64,000 bases of DNA from Thiothrix subterranea (GTDB taxonomy: Bacteria; Pseudomonadota; Gammaproteobacteria; Thiotrichales; Thiotrichaceae): positions 3,219,501-3,283,500 of the forward strand of contig NZ_CP053482.1 in the NCBI RefSeq assembly GCF_016772315.1. Reading direction: 5' to 3'. Shown here one piece after another: positions 19,601 through 54,319 of the stretch. Position 1 is the stretch's first letter, and each line of letters opens with the position of its first letter. The notes beneath the pieces were generated by a model. The model saw nothing but the letters and a program-made list of their open reading frames with translations, did no database searches and was not told where the DNA came from. A program made the translations under genes and the position numbers.

Positions 19601-19628
19601 TTTACATATTGTCTAACTGTTTTATTTT
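19601..19628 (+). promoter_or_regulatory. Possible rpsB promoter
   Basis: TTTACA (19601-19606) and TATTTT (19623-19628) are 16 bases apart. The site precedes the structured leader by about 25 bases. Fit to the consensus is moderate. Confidence 0.35.
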
Positions 19629-19653
19629 AAATCCACACATACATCGACACGAC

Positions 19654-19725
19654 ACGCAGGGTGCCTGACTAAAAAAACAGGTTGCGTTTGTTGGGATGTA
19701 TGGAGGCATAACCCATACAGGAGCT
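19654..19725 (+). promoter_or_regulatory. rpsB 5' leader with two hairpins, probable S2 autoregulatory site
   Basis: Hairpin 1 pairs ACGCA (19654-19658) with TGCGT (19683-19687), enclosing CCTG (19664-19667)/CAGG (19678-19681) around a loop actaaaaaaa. Hairpin 2 pairs GTATGG (19698-19703) with CCATAC (19713-19718), directly before the AGGAG ribosome site (about 19720). Ribosomal protein S2 represses its own operon through a structured rpsB leader in gammaproteobacteria. The pairing is seen here; the regulatory role is inferred. Confidence 0.5.
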
Positions 19726-40086: not shown

Positions 40087-41226
40087 TTGAACAAGCAAGC
40101 ACTGCTGGTGCTGGAAGACGGGAGTGTTTTCCACGGGCGTTCCCTCGGCTGTGATGGCCAAACCACGGGTGAAGTGGTCTTTAATACCGCACTGACAGGC
40201 TATCAGGAAATCCTGACTGACCCGTCGTATTCACGCCAAATCGTTACCTTGACTTACCCGCATATTGGTAACGTTGGTGTCAATCAGGAAGATTGCGAAT
40301 CCACCCAAGTCCACGCGGCTGGGCTGATCGTGCGTGACGTGCCTGCGGTTTACAGTAGCTGGCGTGCGGAAGAATCCCTGCCAGATTATTTAGCCCGCAA
40401 TAACGTTGTCGCGATTGCCGACATCGACACACGCCGTTTAACGCGCATTTTGCGTGAAAAAGGCGCACAACGCGGCTGCATCATTGCAGGTGAAAACCTC
40501 TCCGTGGATGTGGCACTGGATGCGGCACGTTCCTTCCCCGGTTTGAAGGGCATGGATTTGGCGAAAGAAGTCACCGTCAAGTCCAGCTATGTGTGGACAG
40601 AAGGCAGTTGGCAGTTAAACCCCGCCACCCCACGCCCCTCTACCGCGACAACGGCTGAATTCAACATCGTCGCTTACGATTACGGCATCAAAACCAATAT
40701 CCTGCGCATGTTGGTGGATCGTGGTTGCCACGTTACTGTCGTGCCTGCGCAAACCCCAGCGGCAGATGTACTGGCGATGAAACCAGACGGCGTATTCCTC
40801 TCCAATGGCCCCGGCGACCCAGAACCGTGCGATTACGCGATTGCCGCTATCCGCGAAGTGCTGGAACAAAAAGTCCCCACGTTCGGTATTTGCCTCGGTC
40901 ATCAATTGCTCGGTCTTGCTAGTGGCGCGAAAACCGTCAAGATGAAGTTCGGGCATCACGGCGCGAACCATCCGGTGCAAGACTTGGACAGCAAGCGCGT
41001 GATGATCAGCAGCCAAAACCACGGTTTTGCGGTGGATGAAACCACGCTGCCAGCCAACGTCCGTGCGACGCATCGCTCGTTGTTTGACGGCACATTGCAA
41101 GGTATCGAACGCACCGACTGCCCCGCGTTAAGTTTCCAAGGACACCCCGAAGCCAGCCCCGGCCCGCACGACGTAGCCCCTGTATTCGACCGTTTCATTG
41201 AGATGATGAGAGCCGCACATGCCTAA
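40087..41226 (+). CDS. carA: Carbamoyl-phosphate synthase small subunit
   Basis: The 379-residue glutamine amidotransferase subunit, which passes ammonia to CarB for pyrimidine and arginine synthesis. The start codon is TTG 40087, with GGAGG at 40077-40081. The class I GATase triad lies in [14 protein letters not shown] (Cys) and [14 protein letters not shown] (His, Glu); [11 protein letters not shown] is also seen. It overlaps carB by eight bases. Confidence 0.98.
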
Positions 41227-44200
41227 ACGCACTGACATTAAAAGCATTCTGATTATTGGTGCAGGCCCGATCATTATCGGTCAGGCGTGCGAATTCGACT
41301 ATTCCGGTGCGCAAGCGTGTAAGGCGCTGCGTGAGGAAGGCTACCGCGTCATTTTGGTCAATTCCAACCCCGCGACCATTATGACCGACCCCAACATGGC
41401 GGATGCGATTTACATCGAGCCAATCCGTTGGGAAACCGTCGCCAAAATCATTGAAAAAGAACGCCCTGACGCGCTACTGCCCACAATGGGTGGGCAAACT
41501 GCGCTCAACTGTGCGCTCGACCTTTCCCGCCAGGGCGTGCTGGAAAAGTTCGGCGTGGACATGATTGGTGCGAACGAAGTCTCCATCGACATGGCAGAAG
41601 ACCGCCAGAAATTCAAAGTAGCGATGGATGAAATCGGTCTGGAATCCGCCCGTTCCGGCGTAGCCCATACGATGGACGAAGCCCGTGCGGTGCAAGCCAC
41701 CCTTGGCTTCCCCGTGGTTATTCGCCCCTCGTTCACGATGGGCGGCAGCGGCGGCGGTATTGCCTACAACAAGCAGGAATTTGAAACCATCGTGGCGCGT
41801 GGGCTGGATATGTCTCCGACCACCGAAGTCCTGCTGGAAGAATCCCTGCTCGGCTGGAAAGAGTATGAAATGGAAGTCGTGCGTGACCGTAACGACAACT
41901 GCATCATTATCTGTTCCATCGAAAACCTTGACCCGATGGGCATCCACACCGGCGACTCGATCACGGTAGCGCCAGCGCAAACCTTGACCGACAAGGAATA
42001 CCAATTGCTGCGGAACGCCTCCATCGCGGTCTTACGCAAAATCGGTGTGGATACCGGCGGTTCTAACGTGCAGTTTTCGGTCAATCCGAAAGATGGGCGC
42101 ATTATCGTTATCGAAATGAACCCACGGGTGTCACGTTCTTCCGCACTCGCCTCCAAAGCCACCGGCTTCCCGATTGCGAAAGTGGCGGCGAAACTGGCGG
42201 TCGGCTACACCTTGGATGAATTGCGCAACGAGATTACCGGTGGGGCAACGCCTGCGTCGTTCGAGCCATCCATCGACTACGTTGTCACCAAAATCCCGCG
42301 TTTCACCTTCGAGAAATTCCCGCAAGCTGACTCGCGTTTGACCACGCAAATGAAGTCCGTGGGCGAAGTCATGGCAATGGGGCGCACTTTCCAAGAGTCG
42401 TTCCAGAAAGCCCTGCGCGGTTTGGAAACCGGTATTGATGGCTTGAACGAGCGCATTGATCCGCAAGACCCTGATGCGAAAGATACGCTGCGCCGCCAAC
42501 TGACCGAAGCCAGTTCCGAACGTATTTTGTACGTCGCAGATGCCTTCCGTTTGGGCATGAGCATTGAAGAGCTGTTCGCGCAAACCAGCATCGACCCGTG
42601 GTTCTTGGTGCAAATCAAAGAACTGGTTGACCTTGAAAATGGTTTGAAAGACCGCTTGCTCAATAGCCTGTCTAGCGACGAAATGCGGGCATTGAAACGC
42701 AAAGGCTTCTCTGACCGCCGTTTGGCTAAGCTGTTGCACGAAACCGAGAAAACGGTACGGGCGGCACGTCACAAGCTCAATGTGCGCCCAGTGTATAAGC
42801 GCGTCGATACCTGCGCGGCGGAATTTGCAACCAATACCGCGTACATGTATTCCACCTACGAAGAAGAGTGCGAATCCAACCCCACCGACCGTAAGAAAAT
42901 CATGGTGCTGGGTGGCGGCCCCAACCGTATCGGTCAAGGGATCGAATTCGACTACTGCTGCGTCCACGCGGCGTTGGCGTTGCGTGATGATGGCTTTGAA
43001 ACCATCATGGTCAACTGCAACCCTGAAACTGTTTCCACCGATTACGACACCTCTGACCGTCTGTATTTCGAGCCGCTGACGCTCGAAGACGTGATGGAAA
43101 TCGTGGATCTGGAAAAACCTTACGGCGTGATCGTGCAATACGGTGGGCAAACCCCGCTGAAATTGGCACGTGATTTGGAAGCATTGGGTGCGCCGATCAT
43201 TGGTACATCGCCGGATTCCATCGACTTGGCGGAAGACCGCGAGCGTTTCCAACAACTGATTCACAAGCTTGGCTTGAAGCAGCCGCCGAACCGCACTGCC
43301 AGAAGCATCGACGAAGCGGTACGCTTGGCAGACGAAATCGGCTATCCGTTAGTCGTGCGTCCGTCTTACGTGCTGGGTGGGCGGGCGATGGAAATCGTTT
43401 ACCACGAAAACGAATTGCGCCGTTACATGACCACGGCAGTATCCGTGTCCAATGATTCTCCGGTATTGCTCGACCGTTATTTGGACGATGCCATCGAAGT
43501 GGACGTTGACGCGATTTGCGACGGTGAGAACGTGCTGATCGGCGGCATTATGCAGCACATCGAACAGGCGGGTATCCACTCCGGTGACTCAGCGTGTTCT
43601 TTACCACCGTATTCCTTGCGTGCGGACATCCAAGACCAATTGCGTGAGCAAATGGCACAGATGGGCAAAGCCCTCAACGTTATCGGCTTGATGAACGCGC
43701 AATTTGCCATCAAAGGCGACGACGTATACGTGCTGGAAGTAAACCCGCGTGCCTCACGTACCGTGCCTTTCGTGTCCAAAGCGATTGGTCGTCCGCTGGC
43801 AAAAGTGGCGGCACGTTGCATGGCTGGTCAAAGTTTAGCGTCGCAGAATGCGTTGAACGAAATCATCCCGTCCTACTACGCGGTGAAAGAAGCGGTATTC
43901 CCGTTCATCAAATTCCCCGGCGTTGATCCAATCCTTAGCCCCGAAATGAAATCCACGGGCGAAGTCATGGGCGTGGGCAGGACGTTTGCCGAAGCCTTCG
44001 GGAAAGCGCAATACGCAGCGGGCGAAGTTTACCCAACCTCTGGCGTGGCGTTCATCAGTGTGCGCGAAGCAGACCGCCGTCACCTGAAAGAAGTGGGTGA
44101 TATGCTGATCGGGCAAGGCTTCAAAATCGTTGCCACCCGTGGCACGGCACGCGAATTGCAGAACGTCGGTGTAACCTGCGAAATCGTTAACAAAATGCGC

Positions 44201-44449
44201 GAAGGCCGCCCCAATATCGTCGATATGATCAAGAACGAGGAAATCGACCTGATCGTGAACACGACCGAAGGCGAACAGTCGACCCGCGACTCGTTTGAGA
44301 TTCGCCGCGAAGCCTTGCAGCACAAAATTACCTACACCACCACGATTGAAGGTGCGCGGGCATTGTGCAAAGCGATGGCCTACACTGACAGTGAGCAGGT
44401 TTATTGCTTACAAGATTTACATCAGGAAATAACAGAACAAGGGGTTTGA
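41219..44449 (+). CDS. carB: Carbamoyl-phosphate synthase large subunit
   Basis: A 1076-residue synthetase with two homologous ATP-grasp halves. The first begins [23 protein letters not shown] and the second [36 protein letters not shown] and [14 protein letters not shown] mark the two ATP-grasp domains. The C-terminal MGS-like allosteric domain ([18 protein letters not shown]) binds UMP/ornithine in relatives. Start overlaps carA; greA follows four bases later. Confidence 0.99.
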
Positions 44450-44453
44450 AGCG

Positions 44454-44939
44454 ATGAGTACAAGACCACCGCTAACATTGAAGGGTTCGGAGCGTTTGAA
44501 GGCTGAATTGCAGCGTTTGAAAACCGAAGATCGCCCGCAAATTATTCAGGCGATTGCGACCGCCCGTGAGCATGGCGATTTGAAAGAAAACGCCGAATAC
44601 CACGCAGCACGTGAGCAGCAAAGCTTTTGCGAAGGGCGTATTAAAGAACTGGAAAGTACCTTGTCGATGGCGCAAGTGATTGATGTGGTAGCCGTGGGTG
44701 CAATGAATCCCGGCAAAGTGGTTTTCGGTGCAACCGTCGAGCTTGAAGCGGTCGAAACCGGCGAAACCATTACTTACCAGATTGTTGGCGACATTGAGGC
44801 AGACATTAAGCACAACCGTGTGGCGGTGTCTTCCCCGATTGCGCGGGCGATGATTGGTAAGGAAGAAGGTGACGTGGCGGTCGTGCAAGCGCCGAGTGGC
44901 AAGCGTGAGTATGAAATCGTTGCGGTTAGCTATCAATAG
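44454..44939 (+). CDS. greA: Transcription elongation factor GreA
   Basis: A 161-residue factor that rescues backtracked RNA polymerase. The N-terminal coiled coil has [19 protein letters not shown] (acidic tip) and the C-terminal FKBP-like domain has [17 protein letters not shown]. The carAB-greA order is common in pseudomonads and relatives. The stop TAG shares a base with the GTG of the following phosphatase-like gene. Confidence 0.97.
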
Positions 44940-45547
44940 TGGCCAATAATTTTACTCATATTGGCCTGTTGCAACACGGTGCGGTGGAAGCGGGAGACGT
45001 GTTCTGCGGTGAACTCGATACCCCGCTCACCAAAGCCAGTTGGAAGCAGCTCAAACAAGCTTTCGGTCGTGCCAGCCCAGACTGGGATGCCGTGGTGACT
45101 TCGCCTCGGATGCAATGCGCTGCTTTCGCCGAATGGTTTGCACAAAAACAGGATTTGCCGCTGGTGCGCGATGAGCGTTTGCGGGAAATTCATTTCGGGG
45201 AATGGGAAGGGCGTAATCCGCAAGACGTGATGACGACGCATCCCGAAGCGTTGGCGCAATGGTGGCTGAATCCCGCGCAAGTATCGCCACCGAGCGGCGA
45301 AAGCTTTGGCGATTTTCGCGCCCGTGTGTTGGATGCATGGACAGAAATGGGACGTGCCTATCGAGGCGAACGGGTGCTGGTGGTGACTCATGCCTTGGTG
45401 ATTCGGGTGATTATTGCGCACGTATTGCAAATGTCGGATGAGCGCTTGCTGGCCTTGAACATTGAGTACGGCGCGTTGACCCGCTTGCGGGTATTGCGTG
45501 ACCGTAGCGGTGAATGGGCCAGTTTGTTGGTACACGGTTGCGGATAA
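44939..45547 (+). CDS. Histidine-phosphatase superfamily (CobC-like) protein lacking the RHG arginine
   Basis: A 202-residue protein of the histidine phosphatase fold. The N-terminal catalytic motif, normally R-H-G, reads LLQHGAVEAG: the nucleophilic histidine is present but the phosphate-pocket arginine is Gln. REIHFGEWEGR, a family-typical segment, and the second histidine in VVTHALVIRVI are conserved. The CobC-like placement beside a CobS-like gene suggests descent from alpha-ribazole phosphatase. The start is GTG 44939, sharing one base with the greA stop. The altered active site makes catalytic activity uncertain. Confidence 0.75.
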   Translation: MANNFTHIGLLQHGAVEAGDVFCGELDTPLTKASWKQLKQAFGRASPDWDAVVTSPRMQCAAFAEWFAQKQDLPLVRDERLREIHFGEWEGRNPQDVMTTHPEALAQWWLNPAQVSPPSGESFGDFRARVLDAWTEMGRAYRGERVLVVTHALVIRVIIAHVLQMSDERLLALNIEYGALTRLRVLRDRSGEWASLLVHGCG

Positions 45548-46284
45548 TGAAAGCCGTGCTGCGTTCTTTTCAGGTGGCGTTGCGGGTGTTGACATTATTG
45601 CCAGCACCGCCAATTTCCGCGTTTTCGGCGGAAGAAAAAGGGCGTGGTTTGATCTGGTTTCCGGTGATTGGTGCGTTAATGGGTGGGTTACTTGCCCTAA
45701 CCGCATGGCGCTTGCAAGGCATTGAACCGATGTTGGCGTCGGTGATTTTGTTGACGGCTTGGTTGTTTATCAGTGAGTTGCATCATCTGGATGCATTGGC
45801 GCGTAGCGTTAATGTGTGGTTGTTTGGTGGGCAAAGCGCTGCTGTAGCGGATGATGCAGAGGCGGCGCAGTTGCCGATGCCGCATTTCGGTGTCATGGGG
45901 GTCATGGCGCTGGTGATGATGGTCAAGTTTTCAGCGCTTTCAGTGCTGATTGAATACAAACTGTGGCTGTACATTATGATGGCACCGCTGGCGGCACGTC
46001 TGTTAGTGGCGGCATTGATTGGGTTCACGCTAAGTGCGCCGGGGCAAACGCTGGCGCAAGATTTTCGGGTTGAATTTCCCTACGTTGCCTTGTTTATTTG
46101 GTTGTTTTTGGCATTACCGATCGCATTGGTGGCAGGAATCCCGTTATTGGGGGTGTTTGTGTTGCTGTTGCTGATTCGTTTACGCCTCAAACAGACGAGT
46201 GGCGGGCTAACTTGGGAGTCTATTGGCGCGAGTATTGTGTTATTGGAGGCAGTTGGTTTGTTTGTCGCCGCCGTGACCGCTTGA
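45547..46284 (+). CDS. CobS-like membrane protein with degenerate active site
   Basis: A 245-residue polytopic membrane protein related to adenosylcobinamide-GDP ribazoletransferase, which joins the nucleotide loop to the corrin ring. The family pattern is recognisable: GRGLIWFPVIGALMGGLLA near the start and a helix-rich body. But the acidic HLDGLADTxDG motif is here HHLDALARSVNVWL, and the C-terminal GDTLGA-type motif is replaced by TWESIGASIVLLE. The ATG overlaps the TAA of the CobC-like gene by one base. It may be inactive as CobS or repurposed. No other cobalamin genes are in the window. Confidence 0.65.
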   Translation: MKAVLRSFQVALRVLTLLPAPPISAFSAEEKGRGLIWFPVIGALMGGLLALTAWRLQGIEPMLASVILLTAWLFISELHHLDALARSVNVWLFGGQSAAVADDAEAAQLPMPHFGVMGVMALVMMVKFSALSVLIEYKLWLYIMMAPLAARLLVAALIGFTLSAPGQTLAQDFRVEFPYVALFIWLFLALPIALVAGIPLLGVFVLLLLIRLRLKQTSGGLTWESIGASIVLLEAVGLFVAAVTA

Positions 46285-46380: not shown

Positions 46381-46659
46381 ATGTCAGCAGAACAGTTCTC
46401 CACAGAAAAACGTATCCTGATGGCGATGCGTAAAACCCTCGGCGGCATTATTCGCGATTTAACCCCTTCAGATTCAGCCGTGCGTTACCCCTTATCCGAT
46501 GCGACGGTTGAAGACGTGAAAAAATGCTTTGATTTGATTGCAGCGCGTGAACGTGAATTGGCGCAATTGGCTGGGGTGAGTGAAGAGCGTCCGCACTTTA
46601 TTGATGAAGTCAGTGCGACGAAAGTGGTGTCGATTGCTGGCCTGAAAAAGAGGGATTAA
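46381..46659 (+). CDS. Hypothetical protein, 92 residues
   Basis: I do not recognise a family with confidence. The sequence MSAEQFSTEKRILMAMRKTL begins a mainly helical, charged protein (VEDVKKCFDLIAARERELAQLAG). No signal peptide, membrane helix or catalytic motif was seen. It stands two bases before an Xre/MbcA-like gene and probably forms an operon with it. It has none of the RES-domain features of the usual partner toxin. Confidence 0.6.
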   Translation: MSAEQFSTEKRILMAMRKTLGGIIRDLTPSDSAVRYPLSDATVEDVKKCFDLIAARERELAQLAGVSEERPHFIDEVSATKVVSIAGLKKRD

Positions 46660-46661
46660 CC

Positions 46662-47099
46662 ATGCAAACCTTTTCAAGCGAAGAAATGGGCGCTTTGACG
46701 CGAGCTGTTCTTAATCACATGGATGAATGGAAGATCAGCGCGGATGAGATGCTGGCAATTTTGCAGTTGGGCGAAGAAGTGCGCCCGCGCCATTTGCAGC
46801 AATACCGTCAAGGCGATAAAACTTTCCCGCAAACCACCGAAATGATGAACCGCATTGACCACATTGTGGGCATTGCCGATGCGTTGCGCACCACGTTTCC
46901 GTTCAGCAGCCAGATGCGGGTGATGTGGTTGAGCAAGCCGCACCGCCGTTTTCAGCGTCGTCACCCTTTAGCGGTGATGTTGGATGAGGGCGATGACGGT
47001 TTAATGCGGGTCAGAATTGAAGTGGATTGTGCTTACGGTTACGCGATCAACGATGCGCTTCATGCAGCGGCTGAAGAAAAGAAGGCAGCAGCAGCCTAG
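46662..47099 (+). CDS. Xre/MbcA/ParS-like antitoxin-type protein
   Basis: A 145-residue protein. The N-terminal half is helical and fits an Xre-like helix-turn-helix (VLNHMDEWKISADEMLAILQLGEE...HLQQYRQGDKTFP). The second half resembles the MbcA/ParS toxin-binding domain: IVGIADALRTTFPFSSQMRVMWLSKPHRRFQRRHPLAVMLDEG, with the WL-x-P...PL block of that family. It ends in an Ala/Lys-rich tail. The usual RES toxin is absent; the only partner is the 92-residue upstream gene. A strong terminator follows. Confidence 0.6.
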   Translation: MQTFSSEEMGALTRAVLNHMDEWKISADEMLAILQLGEEVRPRHLQQYRQGDKTFPQTTEMMNRIDHIVGIADALRTTFPFSSQMRVMWLSKPHRRFQRRHPLAVMLDEGDDGLMRVRIEVDCAYGYAINDALHAAAEEKKAAAA

Positions 47100-53794: not shown

Positions 53795-53870
<76 letters not shown>

Positions 53871-53894
53871 TTATTGACCGACGTGAGAGTATTT

Positions 53895-54098
53895 ATGGAT
53901 CGTCTTGGTCGTTACAGCTTGATCACTGGTCTGGTGATAACAGTCGTAGGCTTAATCTTTGGATTCGGCTTCATGTTTGCAGACAGCGATGAGTTGGCGA
54001 AAATGTTTTTACTGGCGGTGCCACTCGGTTTTTTGATTACATTTGCCGGGTTATCCACCATTGTTATTTTTTCACCACGAGAAAATGACAAACAATAG
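53895..54098 (+). CDS. Small membrane protein, 67 residues
   Basis: A 67-residue hydrophobic protein between tRNA genes. Two membrane helices are apparent: LITGLVITVVGLIFGFGFMF and AVPLGFLITFAGLSTIVIF. The C-terminus is charged (SPRENDKQ). The start at ATG 53895 has a GAGAG ribosome site; a TTG at 53874 would add seven residues. I do not recognise a family. Confidence 0.5.
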   Translation: MDRLGRYSLITGLVITVVGLIFGFGFMFADSDELAKMFLLAVPLGFLITFAGLSTIVIFSPRENDKQ

Positions 54099-54118
54099 GT
54101 TTGGAAGTTTACATCAGC

Positions 54119-54194
54119 GACCCTATCGTCTAGAGGCCTAGGACACGACCCTTTCACGGTTGTAACTGGGGTTCGAATCCCCATAGGGTCGCCA
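54119..54194 (+). tRNA. tRNA-Glu (anticodon TTC), copy 1
   Basis: A 76-nt tRNA with acceptor stem GACCCTA/TAGGGTC, anticodon TTC in the loop CTTTCAC and encoded CCA. The T arm is CTGGGG TTCGAAT CCCCA. It is identical to copy 2. Confidence 0.97.
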
Positions 54195-54243
54195 CTTTTC
54201 CAAGTCTAGCTATGCAAGTAGCACACAACAAGTTCACATCAGC

Positions 54244-54319
54244 GACCCTATCGTCTAGAGGCCTAGGACACGACCCTTTCACGGTTGTAACTGGGGTTCG
54301 AATCCCCATAGGGTCGCCA
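54244..54319 (+). tRNA. tRNA-Glu (anticodon TTC), copy 2
   Basis: Identical in sequence to the copy 125 bases upstream. Both are preceded by nearly the same leader (AGTTTACATCAGC against AGTTCACATCAGC) and followed by CTTTT. A tandem duplication of the gene and flanks is likely. Confidence 0.97.

Follow-up and report, generated by a model that had tools for sequence, protein, structure and literature searches.

The closest described counterparts of the gene pair analysed here are CobC (TIGR03162; solved relatives 3hjg, 6e4b and 6nru) and CobS (PF02654, TIGR00317). In enterobacteria the two have been proposed to form a membrane complex, and that report (PMC8749415) describes recruitment of CobC to liposomes by CobS, relief by CobC of the membrane stress that CobS causes, and continued dissipation of the proton motive force by the inactive CobS variant D82A. 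In a second report (PMC8092220), each of the Salmonella CobS substitutions D82A, D86A, D89A and D229A abolishes growth on cobinamide plus dimethylbenzimidazole (DMB), and it is called an unanswered question why every known producer ties cobamide assembly to the membrane. Here we describe an altered pair from the same two families, cobC' and cobS', in a stretch of 64,000 nucleotides from Thiothrix subterranea (contig NZ_CP053482.1, positions 3,219,501 to 3,283,500; hereafter the window), part of a 4.08 Mb genome. As in the enterobacterial complex, two neighbouring genes encode members of these families; unlike there, both Thiothrix proteins are altered, and the two halves are also found apart.

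Loss of cobamide chemistry combined with purifying selection on the pair is well supported by sequence comparison. We put the probability at about two in three that CobC' and CobS' are selected pseudoenzymes with a non-catalytic role, relict of an ancestral cob locus and probably engaged in ligand binding or scaffolding. Among the matches listed in a search of the open PubMed Central literature, a scope outside which most subscription papers fall, no title or abstract start describes the pair or a naturally disabled CobS.

Altered residues in CobC' and CobS'

The pair and its diagnostic codons lie in the window as follows.

44939..45547, + strand: cobC', GTG start, 202 amino acids, a CobC-family histidine phosphatase homologue without both phosphate-binding arginines
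44972..44980, + strand: codons of Q12-H13-G14, which is R-H-G in intact CobC
45113..45115, + strand: codon of Q59, the second phosphate-binding arginine of SPxxRC in intact CobC
45547..46284, + strand: cobS', ATG start, 245 amino acids, a CobS-family membrane protein with altered active-site loops
45784..45813, + strand: loop 2 motif H80-L-D82-A-L-A-R86-S-V-N89, which is HxDxxxDxxD in canonical CobS
46204..46227, + strand: loop 6 motif G220-xx-W223-E224-xx-G227, which is GxxGDxxG in canonical CobS

The one-base coupling noticed from the letters was confirmed, the TAA of cobC' (45545-45547) sharing its last base with the ATG of cobS' (45547-45549).

CobC' matches PF00300 (His_Phos_1) with 146.1 bits (E 1.4e-42; cut-off 21.7), and its best solved relative is 3hjg (E 1.1e-26). 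Against TIGR03162 it scores 154.1 bits, below a cut-off of 162.9 that no match in the 16 Thiothrix genomes reaches, intact ones included. It is like CobC in sequence family, in its similar length and in its place before a cobS homologue; it is unlike CobC in following greA rather than sitting in a cob operon and in having glutamine for both phosphate-binding arginines. The roles of the relevant residues, namely the phosphate-binding arginines and the catalytic histidines, are established for the superfamily. They were compared across 101 rows (73 intact and 28 altered, identical rows and repeated loci being skipped), after removal of ten partial, near-duplicate or oddly extended rows (nine intact and one altered, that of genome G008) and of one badly trimmed row. 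R12, H13, G14, R59 and H151 are all present in 73/73 intact rows, and both R12Q and R59Q occur in all 14 Thiothrix copies of CobC'. The Q-H-G that the sequence-only reading had remarked on is thus real, and a second change had escaped it, the arginine of SPxxRC being glutamine as well. With Gln at both sites, CobC' lacks the RHG motif and second arginine that mark the alpha-ribazole and adenosylcobalamin phosphate (AdoCbl-P) phosphatase CobC. Other conserved residues are kept: the nucleophile H13, the acid E83 and the second histidine H151, together with E121, R129 and R156, are present in 13/13 distinct genus rows. A structure model of CobC' built from six sequences had a mean predicted local distance difference test score (pLDDT) of 43.8 and was set aside.

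CobS' belongs to PF02654 (68 bits, cut-off 23.2, E 1.7e-18), with scores below the equivalog cut-offs of TIGR00317 (40.9 versus 110) and NF001278 (98.2 versus 252). Residues were read from a comparison of 68 rows, comprising 52 canonical CobS, 13 altered Thiothrix copies and three sequences of another family, f22; left out were seven individually named rows and five CobS rows of genus g8 that failed the motif filter. CobS' is like CobS in being a membrane-type protein that retains T16, P19, P39, G42, G46, G220 and G227, as well as H80, D82, K127 and R151, the last four in 13/13 distinct CobS' rows. It is unlike CobS in the replacement of D86, D89, G77, G93 and G228 and in the loss of the IxKD stretch. 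In canonical CobS, D86, D89 and the glycine and aspartate of loop 6 are invariant in 52/52 rows, whereas loop 2 reads HxDxxx[RHQ]xx[NST] in all 15 altered genus copies, with D86 replaced by R, H or Q and D89 by N, S or T, so the alteration of the acidic HLDGLAD-type motif stands. The GDTLGA-type motif, by contrast, had been called missing, and it proved to be substituted, not deleted: GLTWESIG of the window protein aligns gap-free to GxxGDxxG, with G228 changed to tryptophan (W223) and D229 to glutamate (E224). The tryptophan occurs in 15/15 altered copies, and the D229 position is E or D in 13 of the 15 (P in G048, S in G062). Three replacements, E77 for G77, F93 for G93 and W223, are fixed in 13/13 distinct rows.

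The predicted structure of CobS' is a medium-confidence model of eight helices (mean pLDDT 69.9); it matched no PDB fold at E 0.001 or better, and the CobS' profile matched no PDB chain at E 1 or better. Among 63 genomes of the order (16 of them Thiothrix) and 369 sampled genomes of the class, no altered CobS of the Thiothrix type was found outside the genus, the next best match there scoring 136 bits versus 410 to 453 for CobS', with motifs read in the best-matching fetched loci only. A separate type of altered CobS was seen beside an RHG-type CobC in three genomes of the gammaproteobacterial genus g29 (family f22), with D82 replaced by M or V, D86 by N and G228 by S; a further CobS match is also present in G338 and G230. 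These copies lie at:

L090 1456-2241: altered CobS of G338
L112 746-1531: altered CobS of G083
L116 2058-2843: altered CobS of G230

Distribution in Thiothrix and selection on the pair

Canonical genes are encoded elsewhere in the window genome, with CobS at C1:2774955 (E 8.5e-49) preceded by cobU and cobT, CbiB at C1:2778218 and an RHG-type CobC at C1:2093568. Because these five sit outside the locus, cobC' and cobS' constitute a second, altered set. That no other cobalamin gene is in view also held for the whole window when five families were searched (CobS, CobT, CobU, CbiB and histidine phosphatase), and canonical cobS, cobC, cobU and cobT were all found in the genome beyond its limits. 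No cobalamin riboswitch reached the gathering score in the window or in six other loci, canonical cob loci included, a result that carries no weight either way.

CobS' is present in 15/16 Thiothrix genomes (absent from G050) and CobC' in 14/16 (absent from G048 and G050), with the two genes adjacent in 13; in G054, greA-cobC' lies on contig C40 and cobS' on C8. The same positions are changed in all 14 cobC' and all 15 cobS' copies, more than chance would give. Canonical CobS accompanies CobS' in 14 of 15 genomes, the exception being G055, where both altered genes are present and canonical CobS, CobT, CobU and CbiB all lack a match; G050 has no match to these four and neither altered gene. Cobalamin-dependent methionine synthase (MetH) is encoded in 16/16 genomes, so all Thiothrix probably still use vitamin B12. 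CobU and CobT occur in 14/16 and CbiB in only five of the 16, which suggests that most of the genus are cobinamide salvagers. Two genomes, G056 and G061, each carry two canonical copies of CobS, CobT and CobU besides CobS'.

Constraint was measured as the ratio of non-synonymous to synonymous substitution rates (dN/dS, Nei-Gojobori) for pairs within a dS range of 0.03 to 1.5. The median is 0.057 for cobC' (14 pairs, 13 genomes) and 0.113 for cobS' (29 pairs, 14 genomes); the corresponding values are 0.094 for canonical cobC (42 pairs), 0.118 for canonical cobS (10 pairs, 7 genomes) and 0.052 for greA (50 pairs). The frame is open in 14/14 cobC' and 14/15 cobS' copies, pairs with dS > 1 included, whereas neutral simulations with 0.5 or 1.0 substitutions per site preserved either frame in no more than 1 of 1000 runs. 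The sole broken copy is the cobS' of Candidatus Thiothrix singaporensis (G057, L046 6013-6753), with two in-frame TGA codons. These may reflect real loss or an assembly error, the latter in view of the metagenomic origin of the assembly and of an unreadable codon in both CobC' and canonical CobC there. An antisense gene was considered as the cause of the low dN/dS and rejected, because the long antisense frame of the window, at 44933-45706, is not conserved as an open frame in the 12 genus loci compared. The relaxed constraint and broken frames that define pseudogenes are, the G057 copy apart, not seen in the pair, and its profile is that predicted for pseudoenzymes, with catalytic residues lost and other conserved residues and constraint kept.

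greA-linked CobC in the family and the origin of the pair

In the window the pair forms the 3' part of the order carB, greA, cobC', cobS', with the two upstream genes at:

41219..44449, + strand: open frame of 1076 amino acids, carB by its sequence, the upstream anchor of the locus
44454..44939, + strand: greA (Pfam GreA_GreB_N and GreA_GreB), immediately 5' of cobC'

The TAG of greA (44937-44939) overlaps the GTG of cobC' (44939-44941) by one base in a TAGTG junction, and a carB match precedes greA in all 14 upstream stretches taken from the family. Within the family, 50 genomes were searched and the region 3' of greA was read in the 47 with a greA match, three of them Thiothrix. A CobC homologue follows greA in 12/12 genomes of genus g2, 6/6 of g5 and 7/9 of g8. 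Of eight g4 genomes with a greA match, four have the order greA-cobU-cobT-cobC-cobS, one has greA-cobU-cobT followed by the contig end, one contig breaks off at 0.2 kb, and in two the readable 4.3 kb and 1.1 kb 3' of greA hold no cob match. CobC after greA was not found in g3, g6 and g7, where most contigs end early.

Altogether 43 greA-linked CobC copies were classified, Thiothrix included: 30 are altered (Thiothrix 14/14, g8 7/7, g2 9/12) and 13 intact (three g2, four g4, six g5). The altered count includes the g2 copy of G008, which is cut by the contig end and has already lost R59. The residues lost differ among genera. All seven g8 rows have P-S or A-S in place of R-H, and hence serine at the nucleophile, two of them also lacking the second histidine. 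In g2, H13N is combined with H151D in three copies, H151D occurs with H13 kept in two, and R59 is the only loss among the residues seen in four, so that the nucleophile is asparagine in 3/8 altered g2 rows. All 28 altered rows retain E83, W89, P112, E121, R129 and R156. The least diverged altered copies have pairwise dN/dS values of 0.044 (g8, G044-G047), 0.063 (g2, G009-G011) and 0.057 (g2, G001-G012), the g2 set comprising the five of 12 copies that passed a motif filter. These low values indicate that CobC proteins without one or both catalytic histidines are still constrained.

Alteration coincides with the presence of another CobC or the absence of CobS. All 13 intact copies are in genomes with no other cobC seen beside cobS, in regions of 4 to 15 kb read around cobS or 3' of greA rather than in whole genomes. 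All 30 altered copies are in genomes that either hold another RHG-type CobC (14 Thiothrix, five g8, six g2) or have no CobS match (G003, G011, G012, G041 and G043 of g2 and g8, with G011 80% and G041 67% complete). A sign test for independent losses was tried and discarded, its one to three independent pairs leaving no significance possible. Genome G046 (g8) has CobS and no CobC near it or after greA.

The CobC trees unite cobC' with the g8 copies linked to greA (Shimodaira-Hasegawa-like approximate likelihood ratio test, SH-aLRT, 97-98), a separate group (99) holds 27 canonical rows from g1, g2 and g8 plus one from g3, and the RHG-type Thiothrix copies of G050, G055 and G059 fall among rows of the class. 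The CobS tree puts cobS' with g4 and g6 at a support of 93, below the 95 mark of the tool, and gives it a long stem (2.45). An origin of cobS' by duplication of canonical Thiothrix CobS was rejected when that grouping was enforced (approximately unbiased test, AU, p 0.0197). The simplest history, as these comparisons suggest it, has cobC' and cobS' as a putative relict of an ancestral carB-greA-cobU-cobT-cobC-cobS locus, whose order is still seen in the sister genus g4. The wider frame is a probable relict pair, together with a family of greA-linked CobC homologues disabled differently in three genera and kept by selection.

A probable non-catalytic role and its rivals

The preferred reading would run as follows. 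An ancestral carB-greA-cobUTCS locus would have passed its B12 work to a second, separately descended cob set, leaving most genera with cobC alone at greA and Thiothrix with cobC and cobS. Once freed of that work, CobC' would have lost its phosphate pocket and CobS' two aspartates needed for cobamide synthesis, after which both genes would have been held by strong purifying selection as pseudoenzymes. CobC' may then be a soluble binding protein, its ligand a cobamide, a nucleotide or a protein partner that it does not hydrolyse, and CobS' a membrane anchor or regulated membrane protein without synthesis, possibly serving as a dock for CobC'; the non-catalytic role, ligand, partner and docking are what we infer. 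The pair appears independent of B12 assembly, since G055 keeps both genes with no match to the canonical CobS, CobT, CobU or CbiB.

Several observations weigh against this reading. The free CobC trees leave cobC' and the g8 copies apart from the greA-linked copies of g2, g4 and g5, which leaves synteny as the main evidence that all greA-linked copies share an ancestor; the tree that forces them together exceeds the quick tree by 0.26 log units and was not rejected (p 0.51). On the tree, only three changes between intact and altered CobC are needed, and the split of 30 to 13 is therefore not significant when relatedness is taken into account. Higher dN/dS, 0.074 to 0.226 (for example 0.165 and 0.226), is found in more diverged g8 pairs, whose dS is saturated. 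The greA-linked CobC is dispensable in some genomes, given that cobC' is missing from G050 and from G048, where cobS' alone comes after greA, and that the g8 genomes G039 and G046 have greA without a CobC after it. Altered CobC persists where no CobS was found, so docking cannot be its sole use. Finally, CobC' retains H13, E83 and H151, and CobS' retains H80, D82, K127 and R151, position 224 being E or D in 13/15 copies; the persistence of H13, E83, H151 and D82 leaves room for altered chemistry in Thiothrix.

In such chemistry CobC' would act through its kept histidine on a substrate that it binds without either arginine, and CobS' would use D82 and E224 in another transfer reaction. The retained residues, invariant in 13/13 distinct rows of either protein, argue for it, and the fixation of E77, F93 and W223 points to a definite new state and not to drift; however, related greA-linked CobC proteins under similar constraint have lost the nucleophile (g8 7/7 S, g2 3/8 N) or the second histidine, and between G048 and G062, with P and S at CobS' position 224, dN/dS is still 0.055, so we regard new catalysis as unlikely. 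Inactive helper subunits that regulate or stabilize the canonical CobS/CobC complex would fit the association of enterobacterial CobS and CobC in vitro described in PMC8749415 and the co-occurrence with canonical CobS in 14/15 genomes. Their case is weakened by G055, which keeps the pair with no canonical CobS, CobT, CobU or CbiB match, and by the five g2 and g8 genomes named above that keep altered CobC with no CobS match, and we hold this explanation to be quite improbable.

The sequence-only reading had itself offered two outcomes, concerted decay of the pair or its repurposing as a two-protein system. For decay, with redundant copies losing function while still present, speak the canonical set elsewhere in the genome, the two TGA codons of G057 and the absence of cobC' from G048 and G050. 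It is contradicted by the open frames (14/14 and 14/15, some in pairs with dS > 1, as against at most 1 of 1000 neutral runs), by median dN/dS values (0.057 and 0.113) no higher than those of the intact paralogues, and by identical arginine replacements in every copy, and it must be judged highly unlikely. Repurposing survives in part: residue loss with retention by selection is supported, and obligate pairing is not, the halves occurring apart in G048 and G054 and altered greA-linked CobC lacking a CobS-like neighbour in two other genera.

A broader proposal, which we advance only tentatively and think rather unlikely as a whole, is that greA-linked CobC forms a new class of non-enzymatic proteins, in which a B12 phosphatase turned into a ligand-binding or regulatory protein in three genera through different residue losses and is translated with GreA; in Thiothrix the disabled cobamide synthase would be its membrane partner, and the whole a cobamide- or nucleotide-sensing module without a role in making B12.

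These findings bear on annotation, since family score alone would label cobC' and cobS' as B12 enzymes and would credit G055 with loop-assembly genes that it lacks. The family also offers a natural experiment, the CobC locus being intact where no other CobC is seen and variously disabled in the presence of another CobC or the absence of CobS. With altered copies under strong constraint where this could be measured, a non-catalytic role of CobC and CobS becomes directly testable, and such a role, if true, would bear on why cobamide assembly is membrane-tied.

Two short genes, at 46381-46659 and 46662-47099, lie 3' of the pair and have no Pfam match at E 0.001; homologues of both are also found 3' of greA or of greA-linked CobC in four g8 genomes (G039, G043, G044 and G047). 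Elsewhere in the window, Rfam identifies a t44 RNA and three tRNAs, at 19616-19712 and 53795-54316.

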